In this document: one piece after another, positions 4,321-21,100 of the stretch
Layout of the letters: each line of letters starts with the position of its first letter
Position numbering within the stretch: position 1 is the stretch's first letter
IMG/VR virus record: IMGVR_UViG_3300001678_000032
Location: 1-37,614 of that record
Direction: 5' to 3' (one strand)
DNA length: 37,614 bases
From: a virus
Position numbers and translations under genes: made by a program
Notes under the pieces: generated by a model
Told to the model about the DNA's origin: nothing
Databases searched by the model: none
Seen by the model: the letters and a program-made list of their open reading frames with translations, nothing else

Positions 4321-4533
4321 CTAAAAACTTCCGCCTATTATATTAAGATTTGGGTTTTCTACTACGCCAAGAACTTTGAAAGTCTGTGTATTAGCATCCC
4401 AAATTATCACTGAGCCATCTTGTCTTAATGATGTATCTACATCGACAAGATCGCCTAATCTTTGTGTAGGGGTATAACTCATAGCCTTAGCTTGAATCCC
4501 TCGATTGCTGCCGATTTTTCCTTTAAGAGCCAT
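4321..4533 (-). CDS. Small virion protein, 70 aa, unknown function
   Basis: It begins MALKGKIGSNRG and contains 'LGDLVDVDTS...DGSVIIWDANTQTFK', a pattern common in phage fibre proteins. It ends NIIGGSF, close to the IIDGGTF end of the 888-aa fibre encoded next door. Its ATG overlaps the stop of the 110-aa gene by one base (TAATG), so the two are translationally coupled. Probably a minor adhesin or adaptor. No enzymatic motif is visible. Confidence 0.65.
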   Translation of the reverse strand: MALKGKIGSNRGIQAKAMSYTPTQRLGDLVDVDTSLRQDGSVIIWDANTQTFKVLGVVENPNLNIIGGSF

Positions 4534-4865
4534 TATCGAGTCACCCCTGGTGTTATTTCAAGTTGTCCTTCAACAACTCGTGTAATTTCGCCAGCAGAGC
4601 TTACGACTTCAACATCGTATACATATCTTCCTGGTTTCATATTGTTAGTTACACTATTGACTAGCTTTATTTGGATAACACCTTCAGCGGCATTTACGTG
4701 AGAACATATAAAATCTACCTTATTAGTAGATGTATAAGTCTTTCGTATTTGTCCAAATATAGTATATCCGGTTAGATTCGCTCCATACCCAGTAGCATCT
4801 TCTACTGTAATCTGAGTACTAAAGTCGGAACCTTGATCTATTGTAATGTTAGAATATATAGCCAT
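4533..4865 (-). CDS. Small beta-sandwich virion protein, 110 aa
   Basis: The sequence MAIYSNITIDQGSDF is followed by 'T.Y...GQIRKTY', 'KPGRYVYDVEV' and a final 'EGQLEITPGVTR'. This matches a small immunoglobulin-like or baseplate-upper-protein-like structural family seen in marine T4-like phages. Two TATAAATA boxes lie upstream, at 4879-4872 and 4930-4923. The nearer one would start the transcript at about the ATG, and no Shine-Dalgarno is present. The gene directly follows the accessory cassette and is the first fibre-side gene to its left. Confidence 0.6.
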   Translation of the reverse strand: MAIYSNITIDQGSDFSTQITVEDATGYGANLTGYTIFGQIRKTYTSTNKVDFICSHVNAAEGVIQIKLVNSVTNNMKPGRYVYDVEVVSSAGEITRVVEGQLEITPGVTR

Positions 4866-4941: not shown

Positions 4942-5715
4942 CTACAACTGATAAGCTTTGATATGTGTCTTTAGAATGTCTGTTCTCTTGTATGGATTAT
5001 CATCTCCAAACCAGGTTTGGAACAACATGTACTTCATATTGACCATCTCCAATAAGTCTTTAGGAGTCAATAAATCTATAGTATCTTCTATAATGTATTT
5101 AAAGTGGTCTTTCATATCCCCAACATGACCAGATACTAAACTTGGTAGAACATCTAATGCTCTTTGTTTATGGTATGCATCTTTACTTATCAAATCATTA
5201 ATAAGCAGCTTTAAAGCATTGTAGTGTCTCACTTCATCATTACGTATATTGAGTATAAGCTCTTTAAACTTAGGATGCTCTATTCTATTAGCTGCTGCTG
5301 TATATAGGGGTGCTTGAATAGACTCAGATGAACATACTGTCATCATCAATTGATATACATCCCAATCGTTATCATCAGATGAGAAACTATTGTATAGATC
5401 ATTACTTACTACCTTTTTACCAACGACTTTATATAGGGCCATGCCATGTCTGAATTCTTCGTATGTCATTATACTAGTAAACAATAGTATTTCCATAAAG
5501 TCTGATCTATATTGTTCTGGAACACCACTGATTATCTTATCTCTTGCAGAACATGTTATAGCTAATGAGAACATCTCTACATCAGCTACATGCACTAGTA
5601 TGCCAGCAATAGCTTTATCATTATCAGATAGATCTTTAACCCAAGGATAGTCATACTCATTAGCTAACCACCTATGAGAATCTGACACTTCAGACCAATG
5701 GATCAGTGTCTTCAT
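4942..5715 (-). CDS. Ferritin-like diiron oxidoreductase, acyl-ACP-desaturase-like (paralogue A)
   Basis: The 257-aa protein carries a full set of six candidate iron ligands in ferritin-like order: E47 (helix 1), E87 and H90 in YEEFRHG, E131 in CSSES, and E161 and H164 in NDEVRHY. The EExRHG plus DExRH pair is the signature of soluble acyl-ACP desaturases (EENRHG and DEKRHE in plants), which use O2 to insert a double bond into an acyl chain on ACP. The protein is shorter than plant desaturases (about 360 aa). The C-terminal region has a conserved WFGDDNPY. It overlaps its paralogue upstream by 4 bp (ATGA), and the operon also encodes ACP and a ketosynthase. It could instead be an N-oxygenase or hydroxylase of the same fold; chemistry is not decidable here. 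Confidence 0.75.
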   Translation of the reverse strand: MKTLIHWSEVSDSHRWLANEYDYPWVKDLSDNDKAIAGILVHVADVEMFSLAITCSARDKIISGVPEQYRSDFMEILLFTSIMTYEEFRHGMALYKVVGKKVVSNDLYNSFSSDDNDWDVYQLMMTVCSSESIQAPLYTAAANRIEHPKFKELILNIRNDEVRHYNALKLLINDLISKDAYHKQRALDVLPSLVSGHVGDMKDHFKYIIEDTIDLLTPKDLLEMVNMKYMLFQTWFGDDNPYKRTDILKTHIKAYQL

Positions 5716-6485
5716 TTTCTCATTGCTTTAACATGAGCTATCTTCAACTTGGCTGGTGTGTATGGATTATCATCACCAAACCAATGTTCTAACAGTTTAA
5801 ACTTTGTATTAGTAACATTCATTAAGTCTTTAGGTGTCCACAAGTGCTTAGTCATATCAGCACCTCTCATATAGTCTTTATGTATTTCAGCATTATGGAA
5901 GTGGATAGCTAAGTCAAGATTATCAAGCATCTGTTGTTTATGGAAATCGTTCTTATTAATCAATTGTTTGATAAGATCCCTCCAAGCAGATAAATGTCTT
6001 GCTTCATCTCTTTTAATGTTCTTAAAGATGTCTTTGAGTCGTTCATCCTCAACAGCATTAATGATCTTCTCATATACCATTACATTAGTTGCTTCAGATA
6101 TAGCAAAAGACATTAATAATGAATATGCAGTCCAATTATGGACATTATCTGCTTCAACTCTAGTATCTTCAGCCCACTCTTCATCAGATAGCTTTATACC
6201 ATTCAACGCGTTGATTACAGTACCATGTCTAAACTCTTCGTATGATATGATTGATGAGTATACAGCTATAGTAGCCCAATCATTTATATAATCTTCTGGG
6301 ATCATCTTGAACATCATGTACACAGATCCAGTTCCTGAATGCTCTCCCTTAGCTATATCTCTTAACGTCTTTAATACAGCTTTGTCGTCATCAGACAATT
6401 CACTTATCCAAGGATAATCATAATTGCCTTCAATCTTCCATCTTTGGTTGTCAGATAGATTAGCCCATTTAATAATAGTATCCAT
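5712..6485 (-). CDS. Ferritin-like diiron oxidoreductase, acyl-ACP-desaturase-like (paralogue B)
   Basis: 257 aa, the same length as its neighbour and alignable along its whole length (shared DYPW, YEEFRHG, DExRH, TPKDL and WFGDDNPY). Candidate diiron ligands are E48, E84, H87, E131, E161 and H164. The pair therefore arose by tandem duplication, and neither copy has lost a ligand. The start ATG at 6485 overlaps the stop of the ketosynthase by one base (TAATG). The helix-1 context differs between copies (GEHSGTGS here, VEMFSLAI in copy A), as does helix 3. That would fit different substrates or an obligate heterodimer. The family is inferred from motifs; an ACP-bound substrate is inferred from the operon. 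Confidence 0.75.
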   Translation of the reverse strand: MDTIIKWANLSDNQRWKIEGNYDYPWISELSDDDKAVLKTLRDIAKGEHSGTGSVYMMFKMIPEDYINDWATIAVYSSIISYEEFRHGTVINALNGIKLSDEEWAEDTRVEADNVHNWTAYSLLMSFAISEATNVMVYEKIINAVEDERLKDIFKNIKRDEARHLSAWRDLIKQLINKNDFHKQQMLDNLDLAIHFHNAEIHKDYMRGADMTKHLWTPKDLMNVTNTKFKLLEHWFGDDNPYTPAKLKIAHVKAMRK

Positions 6486-7489
6486 TATAACCCTCTCGTC
6501 AGTATAGATCCAAATACATTGCCCATTCCAGATGATAGATGTAGTATGATCCCTTTATATTCATTCAATGATAAATCCAATTCAATGCCGGATGATGAAC
6601 CTAATGTATGTCCTATTAGTTTTTTATATGATATAGTACCAATGTCAGACCCTAGCATATCCCTTACTACCTGCAACTCCACTTTATTATCATCAGTTCC
6701 TGTGTCATGAAGTTTCACTAAATCTATGGACTGCTTTATGTACTGTCCAGTGGCCTTTTGAACAGCATCTTTAATAACCCTCTTGTACCCATCTCCAGAA
6801 GAGTTAATTCCTATAGGATTGCTATATGTCTCGTGATAAGTTGATACATGCATCAGTTCAGCAATTGCTTCATTACCAGTAAGCTCCATAGAGTGTTCAT
6901 TCTCTATTAATGTATACGAAGCTCCTTCTCCTAAGTAAAAGGTATCCCTAAAGTCATCAACAGTGTTGCATACCTTATTCTTGCAGAAGAATTCGAGCAG
7001 TTCATTGGATGACCCATCTTCTGCAGATACGATGAGCACTCTATCTAATTCACCTGACTTGATTAACAACTCTGCATGCTTCATTGCTGCAGTATGTGAT
7101 ATACAAGCTGTTCCATCTACAGATAAATGATCAAAGACACCTACTCTATTAGCAATGTATCCCATTAAGATATTATGTAATGATAATGCGTGATTTTTAG
7201 TAGTAGGATATTTGTCAGGAGTCTTAACTAGATCACATATGAATCCAGAAGATGTTGTATTGCCTGCAGCATATATCAATCCGGATCTAGCAGTAGTTAA
7301 ACTATCTTCTAAATTATGATTGGCAAATAACTTATCTAATACGAGATGTATTTTAGTTTTGATTCCACGATCTACAAACTTCATATCTCGTTCATCTAAT
7401 ATAGAATGAACATAGGTAGGTATATTAAGATCGTCTATCAGTCTCAGTTCTCTTGAGCTAATAGATTTAGTCTTAGTAATGTAAATCAT
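6485..7489 (-). CDS. Beta-ketoacyl-ACP synthase of the FabF/FabB type
   Basis: The 334-aa thiolase-fold protein has the complete Cys-His-Lys-His set: C129 in DGTACISH, H261 in HDTGTDDNKVE (compare H-GT-T...N..E), K289, and H294 in KKLIGHTLGSSSGIEL, close to the FabF K..TGH..GAAG motif. 'ELDRVLIVSAED' matches the strand after the nucleophile helix. These enzymes extend an acyl chain by decarboxylative condensation with malonyl-ACP. It is shorter than FabF (about 410 aa), mostly before the Cys, so the cap and dimer region is reduced. HDTGT in place of HGTGT and the missing N-terminal part suggest a specialised member. The start overlaps the ACP stop (ATGA). Confidence 0.85.
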   Translation of the reverse strand: MIYITKTKSISSRELRLIDDLNIPTYVHSILDERDMKFVDRGIKTKIHLVLDKLFANHNLEDSLTTARSGLIYAAGNTTSSGFICDLVKTPDKYPTTKNHALSLHNILMGYIANRVGVFDHLSVDGTACISHTAAMKHAELLIKSGELDRVLIVSAEDGSSNELLEFFCKNKVCNTVDDFRDTFYLGEGASYTLIENEHSMELTGNEAIAELMHVSTYHETYSNPIGINSSGDGYKRVIKDAVQKATGQYIKQSIDLVKLHDTGTDDNKVELQVVRDMLGSDIGTISYKKLIGHTLGSSSGIELDLSLNEYKGIILHLSSGMGNVFGSILTRGL

Positions 7490-7803
7490 AGTACTTGGTT
7501 TATAGCTTCATCCTTGGTAGGATCTAAAGTATGCACCTCATTGATGCAATTTAAGATATCTTCTATTAATAGAGGTCGGGGAGGTTCAGGAGATATATCT
7601 GGGTGATTGTTAAAATCATCATCACTGATTCCCCAGATATCACCCATGTAAATGAATACTGTAATAAAGTCTAATGAGTCTACACCAGTGTCTGTTAATG
7701 CTTGAGAAGCGTCATCCACTAGCTTATAGTCGGATTTAATGTTAATAGCCTCTTCACATATTACCATAATTATGTCAAATTGTTCTTGCCTACTTGTATT
7801 CAT
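7486..7803 (-). CDS. Acyl carrier protein
   Basis: 105 aa, with the phosphopantetheine-attachment motif DTGVDSLDFITVFI. The serine carrying the prosthetic group is S43. A final helix resembles the ACP C-terminus (LLIEDILNCINEV). The protein is longer than typical ACP (about 80 aa), mainly through a PEPPRP-containing loop after helix II and a C-terminal tail. It is the first gene of the leftward arm, with a GGAG 9-10 nt before the ATG. It would need a host phosphopantetheinyl transferase, since none is seen here. It is the presumed carrier for the ketosynthase and the two diiron proteins downstream. Confidence 0.85.
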   Translation of the reverse strand: MNTSRQEQFDIIMVICEEAINIKSDYKLVDDASQALTDTGVDSLDFITVFIYMGDIWGISDDDFNNHPDISPEPPRPLLIEDILNCINEVHTLDPTKDEAINQVL

Positions 7804-7859
7804 AATATATTCTCCAATTGTTTATACTATATATATATGTACACTATATTATATTTTTA
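7804..7859. promoter_or_regulatory. Divergent promoter region of the accessory cassette
   Basis: The 56 bp between the ACP start (7803) and the radical SAM start (7860) is nearly all A/T and must hold promoters for both arms. The minus strand contains TATAAACA, one mismatch from the late box, about 20 nt before the ACP ATG, followed by TTGGAG. The plus strand has TATATTAT-like sequence and no Shine-Dalgarno before 7860. Exact promoters cannot be fixed by eye. Confidence 0.5.
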
Positions 7860-8849
7860 ATGACTATGTTTCTAGATGAAATAAACTCAATCCATATTGA
7901 ACTTACCAACAGATGTAACGCTAAATGTCCTATGTGCATGAGAACATTTAACGATAAGATTAAAAACGATCCTCAAGATATTTCCATTGACAGCTTTAAA
8001 GAATGGTTCTCCCCTGAATTTATTGCAGGCCTGACTAAGATTAAGTTTTGTGGTAATGCTGGAGATCCTGCAATCGCAAAAGATTGTTTAAAGATACATC
8101 AGTACGTTATTGAATGCAACCCCAACATACAGCTATTGATGAATACTAATGGTGGAGTTAGAACTGAAAAGTTTTGGTCTCAGTTAGGTGATTTGTATAA
8201 GAACAACGAGGAGAGTTTTGTTACATTCCACATTGATGGGTTGGAAGATACTAATCATATATACCGAAAGGGCGTGGTATGGTCTAAGATAATGAAAAAT
8301 GCTGCTGCATACAATGCAACAAAAGCTAGATCTCTTTGGGCATTCATACCATTCTTTCATAATGAACATCAAAAAGAAGAGGCTGAAGAGCTATCCGTTA
8401 AATTAGGGTTCACTAACTTTGCGTTAAAGATATCAGCGAGATGGAACAACAGATCTAAACCACATAAAAGTGAATCAGGAATTATATACCCACCAACATC
8501 TAGTGAGTTTAACATCGATGGATTTCAAGTATTTGATGATCATCCAACTTGTGTAGCATTAGCTCGTAAAGAGATGTATATAGATTCTTGGGGAAGATTG
8601 TTCCCATGTTGTTGGGTAGCATCTAAAGTAGAGTCTGGTAAGATTGAAGTAAACGAAGACCTATCTTTATATAATAATAGTATAAATACTATCATGAATA
8701 ATAACTATTATGACCATGAACTGAAAGATTCGTGGAGTAATAGACACAAATCATCTGTTTGCCACGAGAAGTGTACAGGATCTAAGGTTCACGTATGGGA
8801 AGTAGATGGAGTTAAACGACCACAAAAAGATATGTGGCACATAGGATAG
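7860..8849 (+). CDS. Radical SAM enzyme with SPASM-like C-terminal cysteine cluster
   Basis: The start chosen is ATG 7860 (329 aa). The frame is open further upstream, but only through promoter-like A/T sequence; ATG 7866 is also possible. The CxxxCxxC motif that binds the [4Fe-4S] cluster used to cleave SAM is C19, C23, C26 in ELTNRCNAKCPMCMR. 'KFCGNAGDP' (63-70) fills the SAM-binding 'GGE' position. A second group of cysteines, C231, C250, C251, C301 and C305 (LFPCCW ... CHEKC), looks like a SPASM or twitch auxiliary-cluster domain, typical of enzymes that modify peptides, sugars or other large substrates. It is not a QueE (which is shorter and lacks SPASM), although its neighbour is QueC-like. 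Substrate unknown. Confidence 0.8.
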   Translation: MTMFLDEINSIHIELTNRCNAKCPMCMRTFNDKIKNDPQDISIDSFKEWFSPEFIAGLTKIKFCGNAGDPAIAKDCLKIHQYVIECNPNIQLLMNTNGGVRTEKFWSQLGDLYKNNEESFVTFHIDGLEDTNHIYRKGVVWSKIMKNAAAYNATKARSLWAFIPFFHNEHQKEEAEELSVKLGFTNFALKISARWNNRSKPHKSESGIIYPPTSSEFNIDGFQVFDDHPTCVALARKEMYIDSWGRLFPCCWVASKVESGKIEVNEDLSLYNNSINTIMNNNYYDHELKDSWSNRHKSSVCHEKCTGSKVHVWEVDGVKRPQKDMWHIG

Positions 8850-8853
8850 ACAA

Positions 8854-9645
8854 ATGATAAATTTACCTGATGTTAATAAGGTTTTTATAAGTCATAGTGG
8901 TGGCATGGATAGCACATTAGTGCTACTACTAGCTATTGACAAATATGGTAAGGATAATGTTACTGCAGTATATGCTAATATAGGTCATATAATGTCTGGA
9001 GACATAAACGCCACTAAGGATGATGCTGCTCACATGGTATTCAATCATATGTCAAGTTTAATTGATGTCAACTCAGTTATAATAGAAGATTCTGATTTTC
9101 AATCGGTTGATATACACGAGGCCGATATGCACAACATGTTTGCCAAGATAAGAGATATCATACTATTAAAATCCAACTTACCAGTTGAAACACTACCTTT
9201 ATTTGGAATCACTAAAAAGGAAAAGGATATCATAGATCTACAACGATTGAGTGTATCAGCAGATGGAGTTGTACAAACGATTGATATCGATGCTATAGAA
9301 GAAGAGGTTGCTAATAATCCAGAGAAATACAGTGGAGTTGTTAATGCTTATGGACTAGGTAACATTCGTAAACATATTCCAGAACTCCTATCCACAGTTT
9401 ATAGTAAGTTTTCTAAAGAGATGATTGATGAAGCAGAGGCTGGTCAAGCTCCTATATTCAACTTGAATAAGGCTGATATTATTAAAGAATATGTTAGTCG
9501 TGGGTGGGAAGATATTATGTACAAAACTATATCATGCTCTAAACCTGTTGATAACCTCAATTGTGGAATTTGTGATTTATGTAATGAAAGGAAGAGATCA
9601 TTTGAAAATGCAGGAGTTGCTGACAACACAGTATACATTGGTTAA
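8854..9645 (+). CDS. QueC-like PP-loop ATPase
   Basis: 263 aa. The PP-loop SGGMDST is at residues 15-21 (HSGGMDSTLVLLLAI). The C-terminus has the QueC zinc site, C228, C237, C240 and C243 (SCSKP...CGICDLCNERKRSF...AG..D.T.Y). QueC uses ATP to turn 7-carboxy-7-deazaguanine into 7-cyano-7-deazaguanine (preQ0), by activating the carboxylate and adding ammonia. The middle of this protein (about residues 95-210) looks divergent from bacterial QueC. No QueD, QueE or FolE is in the window. It may therefore make preQ0 for tRNA or DNA modification with genes elsewhere, or adenylate another carboxylate. It starts 4 bp after the radical SAM stop. Confidence 0.75.
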   Translation: MINLPDVNKVFISHSGGMDSTLVLLLAIDKYGKDNVTAVYANIGHIMSGDINATKDDAAHMVFNHMSSLIDVNSVIIEDSDFQSVDIHEADMHNMFAKIRDIILLKSNLPVETLPLFGITKKEKDIIDLQRLSVSADGVVQTIDIDAIEEEVANNPEKYSGVVNAYGLGNIRKHIPELLSTVYSKFSKEMIDEAEAGQAPIFNLNKADIIKEYVSRGWEDIMYKTISCSKPVDNLNCGICDLCNERKRSFENAGVADNTVYIG

Positions 9646-10204
9646 CTTTACTGATTATGAATACGGTTCTACTATAGGTATAGCTGATGTTGGCAAAGGG
9701 GTTCCTCATGAATCAACAGCATATTTATATCTTAAAGCATGTGAACACTTCGGCGAGGATAATGTTATCCTTATTAATTTAAATTACGGACAATGTAAAC
9801 CTAGTTACATCACCTTCAATGAAGCATGTGAAATAATTAAACCAAAACACAGTCTAGAATTTAAACCTGATGATTTTAATGCATCGTTAATTGGTGGTGA
9901 TATTAATACAACTCTACAGCATGTGTTAGATGTGTATAAAACTAAAGTAACTCAATATGGTTTAAATGCTCCCATACATCTATTAAAGAGCATTACTAAA
10001 CAGTCAAGAGATTTTATTGAAAATGGTGGTTATCATCCAATACTATCAAACATACCACCAGATTGTATAGATAACATACTTGAAAGTGCTCCTCTATTTA
10101 ATATGAGTAATGAAGATATAATTGAAGCTATGAACCAAGATGGTTATGGAGATATAATTGACAAATATAATATGTGTAAAGCAAGGTACCAAGTACTCAG
10201 CTGA
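9608..10204 (+). CDS. QueC-like paralogue lacking the PP-loop and zinc site
   Basis: The chosen start is ATG 9608 (198 aa), with GGAAGAG about 11 nt upstream; an ATG at 9584 is the alternative. It overlaps the QueC-like gene by 38 bp. It aligns with that neighbour in two places. Residues 28-61 (GKGVPHESTAYLYLK, then FGEDNVILINLNYGQ) align with SGGMDSTLVLLLAIDKYGKDNVTAVYANIGH-type sequence. Residues 161-190 (APLFNMSNEDIIEA...C) align with APIFNLNKADIIKE...C. The ATP-binding SGGxDS is replaced by KGVPHES, and the CxxCxxC zinc site is gone. The protein is therefore probably not a working PP-loop enzyme. It could be a regulatory or partner subunit of the active copy. The relation is by eye. Confidence 0.65.
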   Translation: MQELLTTQYTLVNFTDYEYGSTIGIADVGKGVPHESTAYLYLKACEHFGEDNVILINLNYGQCKPSYITFNEACEIIKPKHSLEFKPDDFNASLIGGDINTTLQHVLDVYKTKVTQYGLNAPIHLLKSITKQSRDFIENGGYHPILSNIPPDCIDNILESAPLFNMSNEDIIEAMNQDGYGDIIDKYNMCKARYQVLS

Positions 10205-10823
10205 CTATGTGAATAAACTATATGGAATGGTAGAGAGGAATTTGAATGTTCCCTTTACATTCCATTGTTACACAGAAGACCCCACCGACATTCGTTCGGA
10301 AGTTCAAATAACACAAATCAAAACAGACTTGGAAAAGTGGTGGCTCAAATTAGATTGTCTTAATATATTTAATGAAGGGACTAACATTCTATTTGACTTG
10401 GATATTGTTATACTAAACCCACTAGAAAGATTACTATCTGTTAAGACAAGAACCTTGTCTATACTATATGCCCAATGGAAAGAGGGATATGTTCAACCGA
10501 AGGATATAGGATTCTCTACTTTATATAACTCTTCTATAATGAAGTGGGAAGGAGATCAAGGTAAAGACATCTATGAGTACTTCCAACAACATAAAGACAA
10601 AATACTATTTAAATATAAAGGTATAGATAGATATATGTTTAATGAACCAGTTGAGGTAGATCTTCTGCCAACATCAATTGCGTACTCTTATTGGAAGGGT
10701 GTTAGATACAAGAAAGATACAAAAGCAGAAATTGAGCGTTTAGATTATGAAGTATGCATCCTCAACCATAGTCCTAAGCCACATGAAATAAAGGACTCAT
10801 GGATACACAAGTATTGGTACTAA
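10158..10823 (+). CDS. Glycosyltransferase, GT-A fold, TTG start
   Basis: 221 aa. The start is TTG 10158, supported by GGAG 6 nt upstream and by the beta-strand beginning at once (TNIICVKQGTKYSADYVNKL). The metal- and sugar-nucleotide-binding DxD is D80-L81-D82 in NILFDLDIVIL, preceded by KWWLKLDCL, as in GT8/GT32-like enzymes. It ends with 'VCILNHSPKPHE...W'. It would transfer a sugar from a nucleotide donor; acceptor unknown. It overlaps the preceding gene by 47 bp, so the two are translationally coupled. The second glycosyltransferase of the operon (13867-14565) has a similar opening. Confidence 0.75.
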   Translation: MTNIICVKQGTKYSADYVNKLYGMVERNLNVPFTFHCYTEDPTDIRSEVQITQIKTDLEKWWLKLDCLNIFNEGTNILFDLDIVILNPLERLLSVKTRTLSILYAQWKEGYVQPKDIGFSTLYNSSIMKWEGDQGKDIYEYFQQHKDKILFKYKGIDRYMFNEPVEVDLLPTSIAYSYWKGVRYKKDTKAEIERLDYEVCILNHSPKPHEIKDSWIHKYWY

Positions 10824-11947
10824 AAAAAGACCCAGATTTAACTATAACAATCTCTTCAAATGCTCCACATTTCGATTATGTTCACCTGCAACACATAGCA
10901 ACTAAGAATGGTATTAGCAAAGCTATAACAGACTTCAAAGATGAGTACTTTATCACAATGCAATGGAAGGATAATGATCCCCATTTAATGGCGTCGTTAG
11001 CTAACGGAGGATTGTATTCTGATGGAGTTTATAGAATAACTAAGATATACATCAAAGATCAAATGCCTATAATGGTCAGTAAAGCTCAGATAACACACTT
11101 ATTCCATATAACAGATTATATCCCAGAAATAGACTGTAAACTGTTCTTTGGTAGCAGGGGGGTTAATGACCATCCATGGGCCAGGATAGCTAATATGACT
11201 GGCAACAGTGATATAGATGAAGAGAATGTTTATATGGTGGGTGTTAATCCTGACAAGAAGAGCACATGGAAGCACATATATTATAGTGGAGACATATCAC
11301 TATTGACTATACCTAAGATGTCTTTAGCGGAGTATAAAGAACGATTTAAAGAATATGAATATACTGATTGGGCTAAAGATTGGTGCAAGCCAGCAATAGA
11401 GAATAGTAAGTTCTTATTTGATAAGTTTGAAACTCCAAGTAAGGTGTTGGAGGTAGGAACATTTGAAGGAGCCTATACTTTTTGGTTAGCAGATAATTAC
11501 AAATTAACTGTAGATACTGTTGACCCTTTCGACGGAACAGTGTATAATGTAAGTAAAGAAGACTTTAACTTCGTTTATAATAATTTTAAACATAACTTAG
11601 ATATGTGTGTAAACAAAGATAATGTTACATTACATAATGATAATTCTTACGATGTTCTTAAACGTATGACTGATATATTCGATTTCATATATGTAGACGG
11701 ATCTCATATAGCATCTAACGTATTAGAGGATTTAGTTTTATCATTTAAGTTGTTGAAGAAAGGGGGCATCATGTTAATGGATGATGCTACTGCATGGAAG
11801 TATAGAGATCAATTAACTAAGGAAGTGTCTCATGATATAGGACATGCTCCCAGATTAGCAGTTGATAGCTTCATCCATTGCAATTGGGCCAACATAAAAG
11901 TTATAAATCTACCAGCAGGAAATCAAGTAGCAATTCAAAAATTATAA
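10799..11947 (+). CDS. Two-domain protein with C-terminal SAM-dependent methyltransferase
   Basis: 382 aa. Residues 1-165 form a region I do not recognise (ITISSNAPHFDYVHL..., with HPWARIANMTGN near 125-136). From about 205 there is a class I methyltransferase: motif I is KVLEVGTFEGAYTFWLADN (216-), followed by DTVDPFDG, 'LHNDNSYDVL', FDFIYVDGSHIASNVLEDL and LLKKGGIMLMDD. This matches the Methyltransf_24 type found in surface-sugar and natural-product clusters. The start ATG 10799 overlaps the glycosyltransferase end by 25 bp. The acceptor is unknown. The N-terminal domain may bind the substrate or be a second enzyme. Confidence 0.75.
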   Translation: MDTQVLVLKKDPDLTITISSNAPHFDYVHLQHIATKNGISKAITDFKDEYFITMQWKDNDPHLMASLANGGLYSDGVYRITKIYIKDQMPIMVSKAQITHLFHITDYIPEIDCKLFFGSRGVNDHPWARIANMTGNSDIDEENVYMVGVNPDKKSTWKHIYYSGDISLLTIPKMSLAEYKERFKEYEYTDWAKDWCKPAIENSKFLFDKFETPSKVLEVGTFEGAYTFWLADNYKLTVDTVDPFDGTVYNVSKEDFNFVYNNFKHNLDMCVNKDNVTLHNDNSYDVLKRMTDIFDFIYVDGSHIASNVLEDLVLSFKLLKKGGIMLMDDATAWKYRDQLTKEVSHDIGHAPRLAVDSFIHCNWANIKVINLPAGNQVAIQKL

Positions 11948-12597
11948 TGACAGTTGAACAAATTAAAGTATGGTGTGCTGATAATAATGTATTTTACTTG
12001 AAGGCCAATATAAAACTTCCTAAGGGAATCTATGAAGAAGCTGATGCATTATATAAGTCTGGTTTCTTTATTCCTCATAGAGATTCCCATGGACGCAATT
12101 GGGAAGTATCTACATTGAGAGGTGAAGAGTGGAACGTCACTACTTATGATAAGTCTAAACGTGATAATTATAAGTGGACAGAGGTTGCTGATAGAACTCC
12201 TATAATGACTAAATGGCTTAAAGAAACATTCCCATCTAATCTACATACTTTAGGCCGATGCAGATTTATGTTACTAAAACCTGGCGGGTTTATTCGAAGT
12301 CATACTGACACACATAAGTGGGAAGATGGTATGCCTCTCAAGAATGATATACTATCAGCTATTAATATATCCATCAATCAACCAGACAATTGTTATTTAC
12401 GGAGAACAGAAGATTGTTTAGAAGTTCCATTCACTCCAGGATCTGTATTCTGGTTTAATAATGGAGCATTCCATGAAGCAGCTAACTTCTCTAAGGATAA
12501 TAGATATCACTTTATTATACATGGTGGTGCTAATATAGAACGCAATCAACTGTTTATTGATTCATTTATGAAGGAGTATCCTGATGCTGTCATTTGA
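11947..12597 (+). CDS. 2OG-Fe(II) dioxygenase of the aspartyl/asparaginyl beta-hydroxylase type
   Basis: The chosen start is ATG 11947 (216 aa), which overlaps the preceding stop as TAATG; the frame is open further upstream inside the methyltransferase gene. The iron ligands are H119 and D121 in KPGGFIRSHTDTHKW and H176 in NNGAFHEAANFS. R186 in KDNRYHFIIHG is the expected 2-oxoglutarate-binding arginine. The pattern 'RCRFMLLKPGG..R.H.D...AINISIN.PDNC' is that of the Asp/Asn/Pro beta-hydroxylase family. It would hydroxylate an amino-acid-like or related substrate using O2 and 2-oxoglutarate. Soluble; no signal peptide. Substrate not predictable. Confidence 0.8.
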   Translation: MTVEQIKVWCADNNVFYLKANIKLPKGIYEEADALYKSGFFIPHRDSHGRNWEVSTLRGEEWNVTTYDKSKRDNYKWTEVADRTPIMTKWLKETFPSNLHTLGRCRFMLLKPGGFIRSHTDTHKWEDGMPLKNDILSAINISINQPDNCYLRRTEDCLEVPFTPGSVFWFNNGAFHEAANFSKDNRYHFIIHGGANIERNQLFIDSFMKEYPDAVI

Positions 12598-13870
12598 TGA
12601 ACTAGCTGAGTATATACTATCTAACTCCAAACACAATACTATAAAGAATACCAAGAAGGTACACATAATAGTAGACTACCCTAAATTGAAGTGGGGAGAC
12701 TATTCAGAATACTTAATGACCTTAACTTGGTTTACTGGTATTGGCTGGAGTAACGGCGGATCAAAAGGATGTAACGTAATATTTGCTCATACCTTGGATG
12801 AGGCTTGCAAGAAGGCTGATGAATATGACCATGCTATGGTATCATACATAGGAACTTTCTACCAGAATAATCCTGATAATATGATACACACTCACTTCGA
12901 TAAGTTTTGTAAATCAGATCATCCATGTAGGGGACATATACTATGGCACCCAAATAAACAATATGGTAGACTACATCTTCAATCGATGTTCTTATCGTTA
13001 AAGCATTGGAGAGAGATCGGCCGTCCTACATTTGGAAACTATACTGGAAGAGTTGTAGTACCGAAGTTATCTAACAGCAATGTTCATGATGACTACACAC
13101 CTCATTACTTAACTCCCCAAGATGAATACACGGATGTTAAAAATGCTGAAATGGCTGAATATATCTCTAAGGTATTAGAATCAGGTAAAACTATTTTAAA
13201 TTATGATATAGAAAGGAGTTCTAAATTCTTTACATATCCTCATAGAGCTACTAAGGACGACCTAGTATGTGAAGCGCTAGACTTTGAACGTAATAGAAAA
13301 TCTAACATAATATATACACGTAATAACGAGAAGATCAATAAGAACTTATTTGATCATAAGTTTGATGTTATATATGCTCCTGCTTCTGGAAACCTAGCTG
13401 AATATTTGTGGAGAGTGTATGGTCATTCTAATACCAAGTTGGTGATATTTGATAATAATCTTCCTAGTGTGAAATGGAAAGAACGATTGTATGACTTAGT
13501 CCAAACACCAAAAGATATCGATAGAGTAACCAACAGCATTGTTCAATTGTATAAGTCTGATATTGATGATTGCTCGTATAAGCCTGAATTAGTATTTAAA
13601 ATGCAAGAGGTGTATTCTGATGAAGAATGGATATCAGATATGAAGTCTATCTCAAATGTAGAGTTTATCCAACATGATCTGGTATTGGATAATACTCTCC
13701 AACCAGATCCATCTAAAAACACATTAATGTATTTCTCTAATATATTTGCATATAATTTTATATACCACGTAGCAAGGTTAGAAGATATTAATAACAAATT
13801 TAATGAATATTTGAACTTACCTAATTGTGTAGTAGTAGGTAAAAATCCATTTAAGGACAATGTACGATGA
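12584..13870 (+). CDS. Unknown protein, 428 aa, in the glycosylation/modification operon
   Basis: I do not recognise a family. The start ATG 12584 has AAGGAG 7 nt upstream and overlaps the hydroxylase gene by 14 bp. The N-terminal part begins with a beta-strand (KKVHIIVDYPKLKWGDYSEYLMT-type), followed by alpha/beta sequence with 'GHILWHPNKQYGRLH' at about residues 116-131. The C-terminal third has 'FDVIYAPASGNLAEYLW' and 'TKLVIFDNN', and a final segment (NTLMYFSNIFAYNFIYH) that resembles a Rossmann-type methyl- or glycosyltransferase end. It lacks a clear DxD or GxGxG. It is soluble with no membrane helix. Its ORF stop overlaps the next ATG by 4 bp (ATGA), so it belongs to the same pathway. 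Confidence 0.75.
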   Translation: MLSFDELAEYILSNSKHNTIKNTKKVHIIVDYPKLKWGDYSEYLMTLTWFTGIGWSNGGSKGCNVIFAHTLDEACKKADEYDHAMVSYIGTFYQNNPDNMIHTHFDKFCKSDHPCRGHILWHPNKQYGRLHLQSMFLSLKHWREIGRPTFGNYTGRVVVPKLSNSNVHDDYTPHYLTPQDEYTDVKNAEMAEYISKVLESGKTILNYDIERSSKFFTYPHRATKDDLVCEALDFERNRKSNIIYTRNNEKINKNLFDHKFDVIYAPASGNLAEYLWRVYGHSNTKLVIFDNNLPSVKWKERLYDLVQTPKDIDRVTNSIVQLYKSDIDDCSYKPELVFKMQEVYSDEEWISDMKSISNVEFIQHDLVLDNTLQPDPSKNTLMYFSNIFAYNFIYHVARLEDINNKFNEYLNLPNCVVVGKNPFKDNVR

Positions 13871-14565
13871 ACATAGTAGCAGTTAGAATAGGAGACCGAT
13901 ACGGTCCTGAATACGAGACTTACTTAGAAGGTAAGTTACCTCAACACAACTTCATTTGGATTAGGGAAGCTATGGCTCCTAACATAATGCTCCAATGGAA
14001 TAAGATGTACGGCATGACTTTAGATCAGGATGAACCTATCTGTGTTGTGGATATTGATGTATTATTATTAGGAGACTACAATAAGATATTTGACTACCCT
14101 ATTGAACCAGGACAGTTCTTAGCAGCACCTGGTTACTGGAGAGATCTTCAAGGAGAAGATGCCATTCGTTGGTCTATCAATGGAGGGTTCTATAAGTACT
14201 ACCCTAAAGACTGTAGATATATCTATGATAAGTTTATGAAGCAGCCTGAGTATTGGCAACGTAAGTATATTGAAGAAGGCTTCACGAGTGGTCCTGTGAA
14301 CGGAGAACAACATTTCATCGAAGACTCGGTTAAAGAACAGTTGGATTTAGTTGTATTGCCTAATGAGTGGTTCTGTAGAATGGATGCTAGAGTTGGAGAT
14401 GAAGCTCGTCATTCCATGACCACTCTTAATAAGCTGTATAATAAACATACAGGAAATGGTTATATGTATTTAGGTAAGGAGTTTCATCCTGCAATTAAGC
14501 ATGTTCACTTTACACATATGGATAATCACCCAAGCAATTGGGAAGATTATGAACTATTCGTATAA
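13867..14565 (+). CDS. Glycosyltransferase, GT-A fold, last gene of the rightward arm
   Basis: 232 aa. It starts MNIVAVRIGDRYGPEYETYL, parallel to the opening of the glycosyltransferase at 10158. The DxD is D62-I63-D64 in EPICVVDIDVLLLGDY. 'INGGFYKYYPKDCRYIYDKF' and 'VNGEQHFIED' resemble the acceptor-side region of GT8-like enzymes. 'KHVHFTHMDNHP' near the end supplies a His that could complete the metal site. It meets the oppositely oriented structural gene at 14554 with a 12-bp overlap of the two 3' ends, which marks the cassette's right border. Confidence 0.75.
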   Translation: MNIVAVRIGDRYGPEYETYLEGKLPQHNFIWIREAMAPNIMLQWNKMYGMTLDQDEPICVVDIDVLLLGDYNKIFDYPIEPGQFLAAPGYWRDLQGEDAIRWSINGGFYKYYPKDCRYIYDKFMKQPEYWQRKYIEEGFTSGPVNGEQHFIEDSVKEQLDLVVLPNEWFCRMDARVGDEARHSMTTLNKLYNKHTGNGYMYLGKEFHPAIKHVHFTHMDNHPSNWEDYELFV

Positions 14566-15027
14566 GAACTTACCTGCAATATATAATGATTCAAGAGGAG
14601 TTTTAGCTTCTCTAAGTTGCTTCTTTAAGGCTGCATTGGTTGAGCCTTCTACTTCTGACATTTCAAATATTTTAATCTTAATATTAAATAAGAAATCTAT
14701 ATTTAAATCGTCAGGTGCTGGATTGAAGATGTGATCTACTGTTAATCTATCTTGCTGATCTGCAGCATTAGGATCGTATACTAATCCATAGTCAATACAC
14801 ATATTCTTAACGAATGCTGTGAAGTTAGCTCTATCAACCTCATGACGTTGGTTGGTCATATTAGTGATTTCATCAATAGTAAACTGTTCTAATAGTTCTA
14901 GATAATCAGGATTCTCTAAATCCGCAGGTACTAAGATTGCTTCAGGAAATTCTAGTCCTTCAACAATTGCAACTGTATCAATATAGTCCTTCTTTGAACT
15001 TGTAAAAAATGCTTCTGTAAATACCAT
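14554..15027 (-). CDS. Small structural-cluster protein, 157 aa
   Basis: The ATG at 15027 is chosen because a GAGG lies 10 nt upstream; a TTG at 15036 would extend the protein by three residues but sits too close to that site. The protein is acidic (MVFTEAFFTSSKKDYIDT..., 'LENPDYLELLEQFTIDEI', 'DQQDRLTVDHIFNPAPDD'). It has a C-terminal helix with 'NAALKKQLREAKTPLESLY'. I do not know its function. It is the last gene before the cassette, 1 bp after the 305-aa gene, so it probably belongs to the virion or fibre-assembly set (an adaptor or fibre chaperone is possible). Confidence 0.6.
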   Translation of the reverse strand: MVFTEAFFTSSKKDYIDTVAIVEGLEFPEAILVPADLENPDYLELLEQFTIDEITNMTNQRHEVDRANFTAFVKNMCIDYGLVYDPNAADQQDRLTVDHIFNPAPDDLNIDFLFNIKIKIFEMSEVEGSTNAALKKQLREAKTPLESLYIAGKFLYE

Positions 15028-15028
15028 G

Positions 15029-15946
15029 TTATTCAAACCTCACTCGTAAATTATAATTGCTAACGGTGTATGCACTGCCATTAGGAAATTCTTGTGATCT
15101 ATAGTCATCACCGACTTGTAGTTTCTGGTAATTACCCGATCCATTTAATCTTGTATCTGAACAAGCAGAACCTTGAGATGAACCAGATCCATTCCAACTC
15201 CATCTTAATCTATAACCAGTAACACTAGACGCTAGGTGTTTAACTGTTTGAAATATATAATCCTGATCAGTATTTTCTACAGCACTATATTCTTGTAATG
15301 ATCCATTGTTAAGAGTACTAAATCGTATCATCTGTGGTAGATTACCAGTAGTAATAGGGTTTCTTTTATGCAAGTAATAATTACCTACACCATAAGGTTG
15401 ATCTTGTGTCTCTGCGATTCCTGCAGCTGTGTATGAACTAACGCTAGCTCGTGTGTCATAAAACACCTGTCCCTGCTTTGTATAAGAAGCCACAGAATTA
15501 GCTGTAGATATTTTAAAAAATTCTGAATCCTTAACTTTAGTTAAAGCAGTATACGAAAATGTATCATATACATCCTGTAATGACATTTTTCTAAGGCTGC
15601 CAGAGCCGTTGTAATATACAGGGAAATTATCAACATTCGGTGCATTAACAGTTGTAACAGTTTGATTTACCTTAGAATATCCTACAGATACAACAACGGG
15701 TTCAGCAGTTGAAGATTCTGCAACAAATGCTGTGCTACTAGAACTGCTTGCTCCAGCTTTTAATCTAGAATCATAGATTGTACCCAGGTTACCACCTCCG
15801 GTTGCAGATGCAACATAGGTCAAGTATACATTAGCCTCACTGAGGTACCTACTATATAATCTATTGCGAGCTACATCTATGTCAGCATCACTAAATTCTT
15901 TGATGTTTCCATAACTATCGTACTTTAAAGGTCTTCTAAAAGCCAT
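15029..15946 (-). CDS. Virion structural protein, 305 aa, fibre-like
   Basis: It begins MAFRRPLKYDSYGNIKEFSD, an opening I associate with structural proteins of marine T4-like phages. Residues 1-40 are helical (DADIDVARNRLYSRYL) and the rest is Ser/Gly/Thr-rich beta-type sequence ending YNLRVRFE. AAGGAA stands 8 nt before the ATG. It lies between the 666-aa fibre and the 157-aa gene in one leftward run. It may be a short fibre or baseplate-associated protein; the T4 counterpart is not evident. Confidence 0.7.
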   Translation of the reverse strand: MAFRRPLKYDSYGNIKEFSDADIDVARNRLYSRYLSEANVYLTYVASATGGGNLGTIYDSRLKAGASSSSSTAFVAESSTAEPVVVSVGYSKVNQTVTTVNAPNVDNFPVYYNGSGSLRKMSLQDVYDTFSYTALTKVKDSEFFKISTANSVASYTKQGQVFYDTRASVSSYTAAGIAETQDQPYGVGNYYLHKRNPITTGNLPQMIRFSTLNNGSLQEYSAVENTDQDYIFQTVKHLASSVTGYRLRWSWNGSGSSQGSACSDTRLNGSGNYQKLQVGDDYRSQEFPNGSAYTVSNYNLRVRFE

Positions 15947-17963: not shown

Positions 17964-17964
17964 A

Positions 17965-18168
17965 TTACTTCTTCTTATTATTTAGTAAAGTCTTCAACAT
18001 ATCCTTTATTTCAGATACGTCATCCTCTAATTTATTTATACGGGCTGCATCCAATTTACGCTTCAATGAAGCTTCACGTACAATCTTAGCATTACTTCTA
18101 TCTTTATTTATAATAGCACCACTAGTTGGATCTCTGAATAAATCAGCCTTACCTTCTACAGGTATCAT
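17965..18168 (-). CDS. Small coiled-coil protein, 67 aa, conserved in the T4-like baseplate region
   Basis: It starts MIPVEGKADLFRDPTSGAII, then has basic residues and a C-terminal heptad-like helix (RINKLEDDVSEIKDMLKTLL) with a lysine tail. The start overlaps the stop of the 1685-aa gene by 4 bp, and its stop lies 1 bp from the 666-aa gene start. Small proteins of this kind sit next to the long DUF4815-type gene in related phages; the role is unknown. Two TATAAATA boxes fall inside it and may drive the fibre gene below. Confidence 0.7.
   Translation of the reverse strand: MIPVEGKADLFRDPTSGAIINKDRSNAKIVREASLKRKLDAARINKLEDDVSEIKDMLKTLLNNKKK
18033..18112 (-). promoter_or_regulatory. Pair of candidate late promoters inside the 67-aa gene
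   Basis: Minus-strand TATAAATA occurs at 18112-18105 and again at 18040-18033, about 140 and 70 nt upstream of the 666-aa fibre gene start. They could give that gene extra late transcription, but both are inside coding sequence, so confidence is limited. Confidence 0.35.
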
Positions 18169-21100
18169 GACAACAACGCTATAGATCTGAGGCTCTTACA
18201 TGAAGGAATCTTAGAAGTATCTTGTGATGTGAATACAATCTTGATAGCGAATAAAGTGAATGGTTCTACACTCACTGAATATTCCATTTCTCTATAGTAA
18301 CTTGGATCGTCTGAGTAAGGAATAGATCCAATGGTAGCAGTTACGTGCTCCCATGGCAGATTATCAAATCCTGTAGCTTCTGAACTAGTTTTAAAATACA
18401 ACTCAATACCAGTTTTAGATGGTCTATTAACATCCAAGAATACTTTCAGTTCATCAGAACTTTCATCTAACTGAACTGTTTTAGTAACATATTTAGATAG
18501 TGAAGACCCTCTATAAGCATCAGTCTCTTCAAAGAAGTTTGATACAGTATTAAAACCATTTGTATCAACACCAATAGGATTATTAATCCTATTGAATACC
18601 GTAATAGCTGAACAACGCTGCATATCAATTACAGGGCTCACATTATCATTATCAGATGTTAATGTACCTCTGAATTCAAGGGTAGGATCAGTTGTGTTTA
18701 GGATAGCTCTTGGAACTTGAGGTGTATAGTTATTGTTTATAATTATAGGTGTATATGAACTGCCAATAACATAGTCATTCTCACCTTGTAACATAGTATC
18801 CTTAATACCCCAAGTCATACCAGTGTTAGGTAAAGTTATCTCTTGGATGAATGGGAAGATTGTATTCCATGCTAGGTTTTCTGATGCAGTTACTCCAGCA
18901 CCACCGTCAATTCCAGTTCCAGTTGAAGCAGTTGGAGTTGTCACAGTATATCTATCTCTCTCTACGTTTTTAATAGTATGACTTGACTTCACTTCTACTA
19001 AAGGTATCCCGTTAATATTAGATGTTCCAGCATAATCAATTACTACAGATTCACCATTAGTCATACCATGGTTTCTATGAGATACTATAATATCTTTAGA
19101 TCCTATTATAGTTTGGAATGGATCCAACTCTAATGATCTTGCTTGAATAGAATCATTGTATAAGTCTATAGAAGCACTTGAACTAAACACAGCTCTATTC
19201 ATTCTAAACGATATATCTGTATTTTGATCAGGAGTCCATGTAGATGCGTTAGCAGATTTAAACATTACACCATTATATGGTTGTTTGTTTATTCTATTTC
19301 CATCAACGTCATCTTGCCCAATCTCAGCAACTTTTACATTATATTGATTAGAGTTAGCCATAATAACGAAACAGTATTCAATACCATCTTGTAAATATAC
19401 AGGCGAATCAAATGTAAAAGTGGTTGCTGGATTAGTATTAACTACGTCTGGAATGATAACATCAACCGGATTTAAAGTCTTTCTTGATAGTGGCACTACA
19501 CGTTGTGTAGGAATACCTTGATCCATTTCTCTTATTTGAATTTCTACTGGAATGTTAGCATCTTTAGATTGGAAGAACAAGTCAAGGCTTGTTACGAATG
19601 CTCCACCTTGCAAGTCAACCATTATAGATTGAGCTAGAGGATCTACCCAGTAAGTTCTAGTAGACTCATTTGTTCTAGTTTGATTTACAGCTTCTCTTTG
19701 AATTGTTGGAACTCTAGTCGATATAGAAACATTCTCTTTTGTCTCGATTAAACCTTTAGCAGCATAGTTTGCTGATGCAAAAGTAATATTGTTATCATTA
19801 GGGTTATTATTTTCAGATGATGTTAATAAGAACGTCTTATCACCAGTATTGAAACTCATATCACTATTGTTAGGTACCCAAAATGATCCTTTGATGAATC
19901 CGTTTGCGTCAGTAACAAGTGAAGTAGCTCCTAGTGGGTGAGCTGTTTTGTCATTAATACCAGTAGTAAGAGCGTTATTTGCTATAACAGCAAACGCAGC
20001 TGAAAGGATATCCATATCAACAGTGTTTACGTATGAAGATACTTCAACACCATCGAAGAATGCAAATACTTCAGTATTAGGTCTTAACCTAGTACCTTCA
20101 AATGAAACGAATCGAGATCTCATAAATGGAGCAAAGTTCACAGATACTACTCTATCTCCAACAGTAGTAGATACAGTATCAGTTCCTATAGATGTTACAG
20201 AACCTGCTCTTGATTGTCCACGTGTAGTAGTCTGATCTCTTCTTCTTCCACTAGCTACTGTAGTTGTTCCTGTCCAGTTAGTCTGCCATGAATTCCATAC
20301 AGTACCTGTTGCAACTGCCTCATTTACGATAGCACTCATTGCATCAAAAACACCGTCATTATTAATAATCACGTTAGGACGTCTATCTATATCTTTCCAC
20401 TCATCTGTTTCAGGAGTCAGCTTTAAAGACCCACTCCAATTGAAGACATCGTACGGATTAACGTTAATAGCTGTCGAGTATTGTAGCTGCTCAATTATAG
20501 CAGTATTTGTATAAGGTAGTGTTACAAGGTCACCTGTTCTTTGAGCACTAGATGAATTATCAAATAACATAGATACGTTATTTTCAGAAAATAATGGTCT
20601 TAGTAGACCATTAGCTCTATCGATACCGACTGAGTACTCAGTTGAGTCTGTTCTAGCAACATTTGTCGATTGGAACGAGTCTACCAAGAATCCTGTCTTA
20701 AATTTATCAATATTACCAGCACCTAAGATCTGTTTATCACTAGCTTCTTTTTCTAGTAAAGATAATACAGTATAGTATTCCAGCTTGTTGATTCTATTCT
20801 CAAGCTTACCAATATCACGCATTGTGTAGCGTTTATTATCAATATACTGAATATCAACTTCGTTTGGTGTCATTGTGTATGCAGGAATATTTAAATGATA
20901 CAATACCATTGCATCTTTAGGCATTCCTGGCTCAGATGGATCTAAATCAGAAACACCTTTAAGTACACCGAATTCTCCATCCTTATCTAAGTACACCTTA
21001 TCAATTCTATTTAAGTAATACTGAATATCTGTTGTGAACTGAGTGTTAGGTCTAGGACATGTAGTTACAGATGCTCCACTTCCAGTGAAGTGTCCTCCAC

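Follow-up and report, generated by a model that had tools for sequence, protein, structure and literature searches.

A cassette of twelve non-structural genes (positions 4,942 to 14,565) within the fibre locus of a T4-like phage combines, in its two divergent arms, an acyl-chemistry gene set with a set of glycan-type genes. We analysed it in IMGVR_UViG_3300001678_000032, a linear IMG/VR virus record of 37.6 kb (37,614 nucleotides, hereafter the window), which is a fragment that stops within the fibre region. The left arm, which is a new part of this locus, encodes an acyl carrier protein (ACP), a FabF-like beta-ketoacyl-ACP synthase (KAS) and two diiron proteins, and is best read as an acyl-ACP pathway of the phage that would supply a product to the virion or the envelope. 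For the cassette as a whole we favour, at roughly even chances, the explanation that this pathway and a glycan mosaic of the type found in the host recognition cluster (HRC) of pelagimyophages are two separately acquired modules within a hypervariable cluster of a T4-like phage. This explanation is based on gene order, homology, catalytic residues and the recurrence of the acyl genes beside virion genes. A preliminary description made from the DNA letters had read the left arm as acyl chemistry, and profiles, residues and predicted fold bear this out.

Judged by its sequence, the ACP-like protein has both the DSL/DSM-type serine that would accept phosphopantetheine and the sequence profile of its family: the D-S-x-D serine motif is invariant among 13 ACP homologs, and a PDB search with the family profile retrieves ACPs (best E 1.3e-4). 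The window KAS matches the FabF profile (E 7e-18), as its family profile does FabF (E 2.8e-32), and when aligned to E. coli FabF it keeps all four catalytic positions, Cys, His, Lys and His. It misses the NCBIfam fabF equivalog cut-off (64 bits vs 494) and, by these comparisons, is a FabF relative rather than FabF itself. The phage pair thus resembles bacterial acpP-fabF in its ACP-then-KAS order, ACP serine and KAS catalytic residues, yet differs from it in several respects. In phages the two genes overlap, in most cases by 4 bp, whereas in E. coli they are 87 bp apart; the phage KASs are 334-374 aa long, unlike the 413 aa of FabF, and form a separate clade together with the window KAS (support 100/100, against a small sampling of three cellular sequences); and, unlike in type II fatty acid synthesis, no fabD, fabG or fabH was seen with the phage ACP-KAS genes.

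The remaining two left-arm genes encode paralogous proteins, A and B (35% identity, self-BLAST E 5e-52), with the candidate iron ligands E47, E87xxH90, E131 and E161xxH164 in A and E48, E84xxH87, E131 and E161xxH164 in B. This E, ExxH, E, ExxH set, comprising four carboxylates and two His, is also present in a homolog from another phage locus (L278). An AlphaFold2 (AF2) model of protein B, built on a two-sequence alignment (pLDDT 77, pTM 0.79), has a predicted fold similar to acyl-ACP desaturases, aldehyde-deformylating oxygenase (ADO) and other diiron oxygenases (VIA Z ~14-15.6), with desaturases, ADO and phenol and methane hydroxylases tied in Z. The top PDB sequence match of the pair is the acyl-ACP desaturase DesA2, a weak one (E 0.022), PF03405 scores below its cut-off, and the top match in a viral structure library is an uncultured phage 'rubrerythrin', with no match at E < 0.001. 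The window proteins would share the ferritin-like diiron fold and the ligand set of soluble acyl-ACP desaturases and cyanobacterial ADO, to which they are only ~10-18% identical in structural alignments. Since ACP and KAS share an operon with the diiron pair, the simplest assumption is that the pair acts on an acyl chain bound to ACP.

In the pathway that we propose, the host would load the phage ACP with phosphopantetheine, as its invariant serine suggests, and the FabF-like synthase, with its intact Cys-His-Lys-His, would condense an acyl chain on it. The two diiron proteins may then desaturate or hydroxylate the ACP-bound chain, in keeping with their ligands, fold and operon, and the acyl product would be handed to a virion component or to an envelope lipid or glycan. 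The right-arm mosaic would make and decorate a glycan that is carried by the host surface or by the fibres. Several points weigh against this reading. The diiron assignment hangs on a two-sequence model that was good in one of five, and other ferritin-like oxygenases match the fold of protein B nearly equally; the diiron gene is absent from most ACP-KAS loci, such that the core product may need none; and an acyltransferase to pass the product on is not recognisable in either arm.

The ACP-KAS pair recurs widely in other phages. Single-sequence scans of viral contigs with the window KAS or radical S-adenosylmethionine (SAM) protein returned nothing, and alignments were required: the first KAS relatives came from 17 viral contigs plus MW202545, and a search with the 17-sequence alignment found relatives in at least 455 IMG/VR contigs, among which the presence of ACP was checked in the best-scoring ones. 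All 17 loci checked in the first set have ACP immediately before KAS, with an overlap of 4 or 7 bp, as do 76 of 77 loci of a second set (without regard to overlap), the exception beginning at a contig end; recurrence counts obtained from pattern scans are lower bounds. Of 94 sampled ACP-KAS loci, 90 have a same-strand virion marker no more than 2.5 kb away, the markers of this census having been drawn from those same loci. Three virion contexts were seen: mostly a virion stabilisation-type gene (phrog_3287), an SU10-like portal gene, whose group of KASs is the sister of the window KAS (support 96/95), and head-fibre genes.

This third, head-fibre context (L278 and L281) carries diiron, ACP and KAS genes on one strand, with identical diiron proteins at the two loci. 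The L278 diiron protein, whose gene precedes ACP, is 29% identical to protein B over 269 residues and keeps the six ligands. The triad is therefore a recurring set and not a chance neighbourhood. This relative was reached solely through the KAS search; direct scans of viral and genome collections, and a scan for the WFGDDNP motif in DNA, found no relatives of the diiron pair. In L278 (6692-10767), small open reading frames and a cupin-domain protein (10399-10767) lie around the triad and adjoin the head-fibre-type genes.

Among 50,697 phage records, only MW202545 (Siphoviridae sp. ctpbd312) has a full-length phage-type KAS. As in the window, its ACP-KAS pair overlaps by 4 bp, and it adjoins a tail/stabilisation gene; unlike the window, this phage is not T4-like and has neither diiron genes nor a glycosyltransferase cassette there. 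KAS matches in Listeria, Staphylococcus, Enterococcus and Pseudomonas records of the phage collection, which are unannotated or unverified, look like host FabF DNA, and the fabG-acpP-fabF genes of a Rhodobacteraceae prophage (PMC8224337), being in canonical host order, were not counted as the same module. Scanning GTDB species genomes with two short patterns brought up a single distant KAS, which is of another type, and none of the phage type. The open-access papers searched contained no ACP-KAS set beside virion genes. Such sets are thus widespread in unrelated uncultured phages, while cultured phages almost entirely lack them. This suggests that a lipid-type modification, destined for the particle or the cell surface, is made by some phages themselves. 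That many uncultured tailed phages use ACP and KAS, sometimes with a diiron enzyme, to build a phage-specific acyl group in or for the virion is a tentative proposal that we consider somewhat doubtful. If true, it would mean that phages spend resources on making a specific acyl group, for use in their particle or in the host envelope, and would add to phage biology a lipid layer that can be tested.

The destination of the acyl product separates two further explanations. In one, the acyl module makes a fatty acid or acyl group that is built into the virion, either as a spike or fibre ligand or as part of a lipidated structural protein, aiding folding or membrane penetration. Fatty acids occur within the T4 gp5 spike (PMC4576200). 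Together with the finding that, in 90 of the 94 loci, ACP-KAS has portal, tail, head-fibre or stabilisation genes around it, this makes a virion role a serious rival to envelope remodelling, and the absence of right-arm glycan genes from ACP-KAS loci also speaks for it. However, the fatty acids bound by T4 gp5 are ordinary ones from the cell, T4 is not known to encode a synthase, no lipidated partner protein was identified, and adjacency to virion genes may merely mirror shared late timing; overall we regard this explanation as rather unlikely.

Alternatively, the module may remodel the acyl chains of the host membrane or lipid A, leading to exclusion of other phages or to easier lysis or entry. 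Phages are known to carry lipid-acting enzymes, such as the cyanophage desaturases (Roitman 2018) cited in PMC8224337, and the right arm is of glycan type, both of which count for remodelling. Yet the cassette lacks a lipid acyltransferase, and the stable neighbours are virion genes instead of early host-takeover genes, such that this, too, appears fairly improbable.

The layout of the cassette is as the preliminary description gave it: four genes on the minus strand (4942-7803) and eight on the plus strand (7860-14565), all twelve with intact open reading frames, diverge from a 56-bp A/T-rich gap, and the virion genes on both sides are homologous to genes of the phage Mosig. The left-arm junctions are overlaps of 4, 1 and 4 bp, and those of the right arm a 4-bp gap followed by overlaps of 38, 47, 25, 1, 14 and 4 bp. 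The tight packing is real, and it makes the translational coupling that had been asserted for both arms plausible. Chance assembly of the cassette is excluded because other phage contigs contain homologs of 11 of its 12 genes, all but the degenerate QueC-like one, and for several of these the local order is also kept.

That the cassette moves as a unit, a point which the preliminary description had raised for checking, does not hold. Two anchor scans yielded 160 fibre-locus relatives, nine of which contain both flanking genes and therefore span the whole site. Left-arm genes were found in none of the 160, including these nine, all of which have right-arm genes, and among the relatives right-arm genes recur as subsets in both orientations. 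Conversely, unrelated phages carry the left-arm set next to portal, head-fibre or tail genes and lack the right arm there, and none of 78 newly fetched ACP-KAS loci contains right-arm genes. The comparison of fibre loci that the preliminary description had called for thus shows the arms apart, with unrelated neighbours, the very outcome it had named as speaking against it.

These counts bear on the explanation that both arms form one pathway, leading to a single acylated and glycosylated surface compound or a secreted small molecule. The arms do share the divergent intergenic region, their enzymes are chemically complementary, and a cassette with two arms, comparable to this one, occupies the site in Mosig; nevertheless, the arms are never together outside the window (none of the 160 relatives, none of the 78 ACP-KAS loci) and the composition of the right arm differs by subset, which leaves a single pathway improbable. 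Within the favoured explanation of two modules, the right arm looks, from its gene content, like a mosaic of two types seen in relatives. L006 has radical SAM, QueC-like, glycosyltransferase (GT), methyltransferase and GT genes in the order and on the strands of the window, and its set stops near the left flank with one small open reading frame between, a state without the left arm. L007 contains a GT, the hydroxylase, the 428-aa protein and a GT. In L183, one strand carries the hydroxylase, the 428-aa protein and a GT, and the other a radical SAM, a QueC-like protein, a GT and a second radical SAM. The convergent overlap of 12 bp at the stop codons of the last GT gene and the flanking gene (window 14554-14565, L006 11392-11403, L007 11377-11388, and L183) is exactly conserved across these diverged phages.

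Chemistry-type, non-structural genes within a fibre locus had been predicted for the window, and profile assignments agree. Most right-arm labels stood, namely a radical SAM protein, a PP-loop protein, two GT8-like proteins with DxD, a methyltransferase and a hydroxylase. The exceptions are 9608-10204, which is a degenerate QueC-like paralog without the SGGxDS ATP-binding motif and without the zinc cysteines, possibly a non-catalytic partner subunit of the intact QueC-like protein that its gene overlaps by 38 bp, and the 428-aa protein, which had been called unknown. The N-terminal half of the latter is indeed unrecognised, the model being poor there with no recognisable fold, while its C-terminal half resembles SAM methyltransferases in a weak model (Foldseek prob 0.99, VIA Z 8-9.3). 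The radical SAM protein has CxxxCxxC, matches N_Twi_rSAM (E 4e-17, below the cut-off of that profile) and is 51% identical to its L006 counterpart. Both GT families give weak GT8 profile matches (E 0.004-0.005) and match each other at 99.5% by hhalign; homologs of the first were found in 60 loci, with DxD invariant.

Peptides are frequent substrates of SPASM/twitch radical SAM proteins and of the Asp/Asn hydroxylase family. It is conceivable that the products of the radical SAM, QueC-like and hydroxylase genes modify the fibre proteins themselves, including by protein conjugation of the QueC type, for which Qat and type IV CBASS are examples. In the alignment, the intact QueC-like protein retains both SGGMDS, of the SGGxDS type, and C(x)8CxxCxxC, and QueC relatives have been proposed to conjugate deazaguanine to proteins (PMC13329287). 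We nonetheless think this decidedly improbable: no acceptor peptide is obvious, the protein misses the NCBIfam cut-offs for QueC (TIGR00364, 36.5 bits vs 150) and QatC, its counterpart in L006 is strongly diverged (27% identity), and the paralog is degenerate.

The site itself is the published HRC of pelagimyophages; neither site nor theme is new. According to the available text of PMC7029224, the HRC is a hypervariable region that follows the VrlC gene, extends to the neck gene gp14 and holds fibre genes, GT8 transferases and radical SAM cassettes, for which superinfection avoidance was proposed (Zaragoza-Solas et al. 2020). The window likewise has a hypervariable stretch between conserved structural genes, beginning after a VrlC-type baseplate gene, and its baseplate wedge protein is nearest to those of Melnitz, HTVC008M and Mosig (33-37% identity over approximately full length). 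It differs in its ACP, KAS and soluble diiron enzymes, which are absent from the HRC description in that text and from the 160 related loci. Surface or virion modification, put forward as the likeliest theme, is supported, and is also the guess published for the locus (PMC7029224, same text). In the cultured Pelagibacter phage Mosig EXVC030M, homologous flanks border a large, different divergent biosynthetic cassette; common to both are the radical SAM protein (23%) and both GT8-like proteins (27-30%), whereas the Mosig left arm encodes oxygenases, an aminotransferase and reductases, with no acyl module found. The corresponding cluster of HTVC008M includes a block of oxygenase genes in reversed orientation, ahead of the neck genes. 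Hence, the statement that no such combination is known in T4-like phages stands for the left arm and fails for GT8/radical SAM cassettes, which have been described, are common at this site and have a comparable example in Mosig. The site illustrates how ocean phages swap surface-chemistry genes at a locus linked to host recognition.

Table 1. Features of the cassette and its surroundings in the window
Feature	Position	Strand	Basis or remark
Left-boundary virion gene, fibre locus	4533..4865	-	39-40% to Mosig, Melnitz, HTVC008M
Ferritin-like diiron protein A, 257 aa	4942..5715	-	Pfam Rubrerythrin E 1.6e-4, slightly below cut-off
Ferritin-like diiron protein B, 257 aa, predicted acyl-ACP desaturase/ADO-like fold	5712..6485	-	AF2 model
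FabF-type KAS, shortened, 334 aa	6485..7489	-	phrog_35856 E 4.6e-65
ACP-like protein, 105 aa, DSLD serine	7486..7803	-	overlaps KAS by 4 bp
Divergent intergenic region, A/T-rich	7804-7859	.	56 bp, 14% GC
Radical SAM protein, 329 aa, SPASM/twitch-type C-terminal cysteines	7860..8849	+	Radical_SAM above cut-off
QueC-like PP-loop ATPase, 263 aa	8854..9645	+	PF06508 E 7e-13, above cut-off
Degenerate QueC-like paralog, 198 aa	9608..10204	+	weak BLAST to 8854-9645, alignment
GT8-like glycosyltransferase, 221 aa, TTG start	10158..10823	+	phrog_1962 E 1.5e-9
Protein with C-terminal Methyltransf_24, 382 aa	10799..11947	+	PF13578 E 2.9e-14; 40% to L006
Asp/Asn beta-hydroxylase family 2-oxoglutarate oxygenase (Asp_Arg_Hydrox), 216 aa	11947..12597	+	PF05118 E 2.5e-9, above cut-off; 60% to L007
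428-aa protein, C-terminal half (237-428) methyltransferase-like	12584..13870	+	homologs in L007 and seven other loci
Second GT8-like glycosyltransferase, 232 aa	13867..14565	+	GT8 structure 5gvv E 0.005; 75% to L006
Right-boundary gene, conserved start of variable site	14554..15036	-	homologs in 65 loci
Fibre-locus flanking gene, scan anchor	15029..15946	-	40% to Mosig_00097; 175 IMG/VR relatives
VrlC-type baseplate protein, marks HRC start	18165..23222	-	33-39% to VrlC proteins of Mosig, HTVC008M

The T4 late promoter motif TATAAATA occurs 12 times against 7.6 expected, a weak signal, as 5 of 100 shuffles were equally high, and it is absent from the divergent gap. PADLOC matches to viperin and mads_2 were set aside as weak matches at superfamily level. 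In the N-terminal half of the 428-aa protein, the motif HDDYTP is invariant in eight relatives. Other loci showed further gene content near the site. In L006, a reversed block past the left flanking gene (16289-19620), with two large proteins that appear glycosyltransferase-like by eye, interrupts the fibre region. L061 carries carbamoyltransferase-like and SGNH hydrolase-like proteins (7829-9947, both by eye) at the fibre-locus site, hinting at glycan decoration, and in L164, L173, L180, L197 and L201, arrays of four GT homologs lie on the opposite strand directly ahead of the fibre gene that corresponds to the left-boundary gene of the window.

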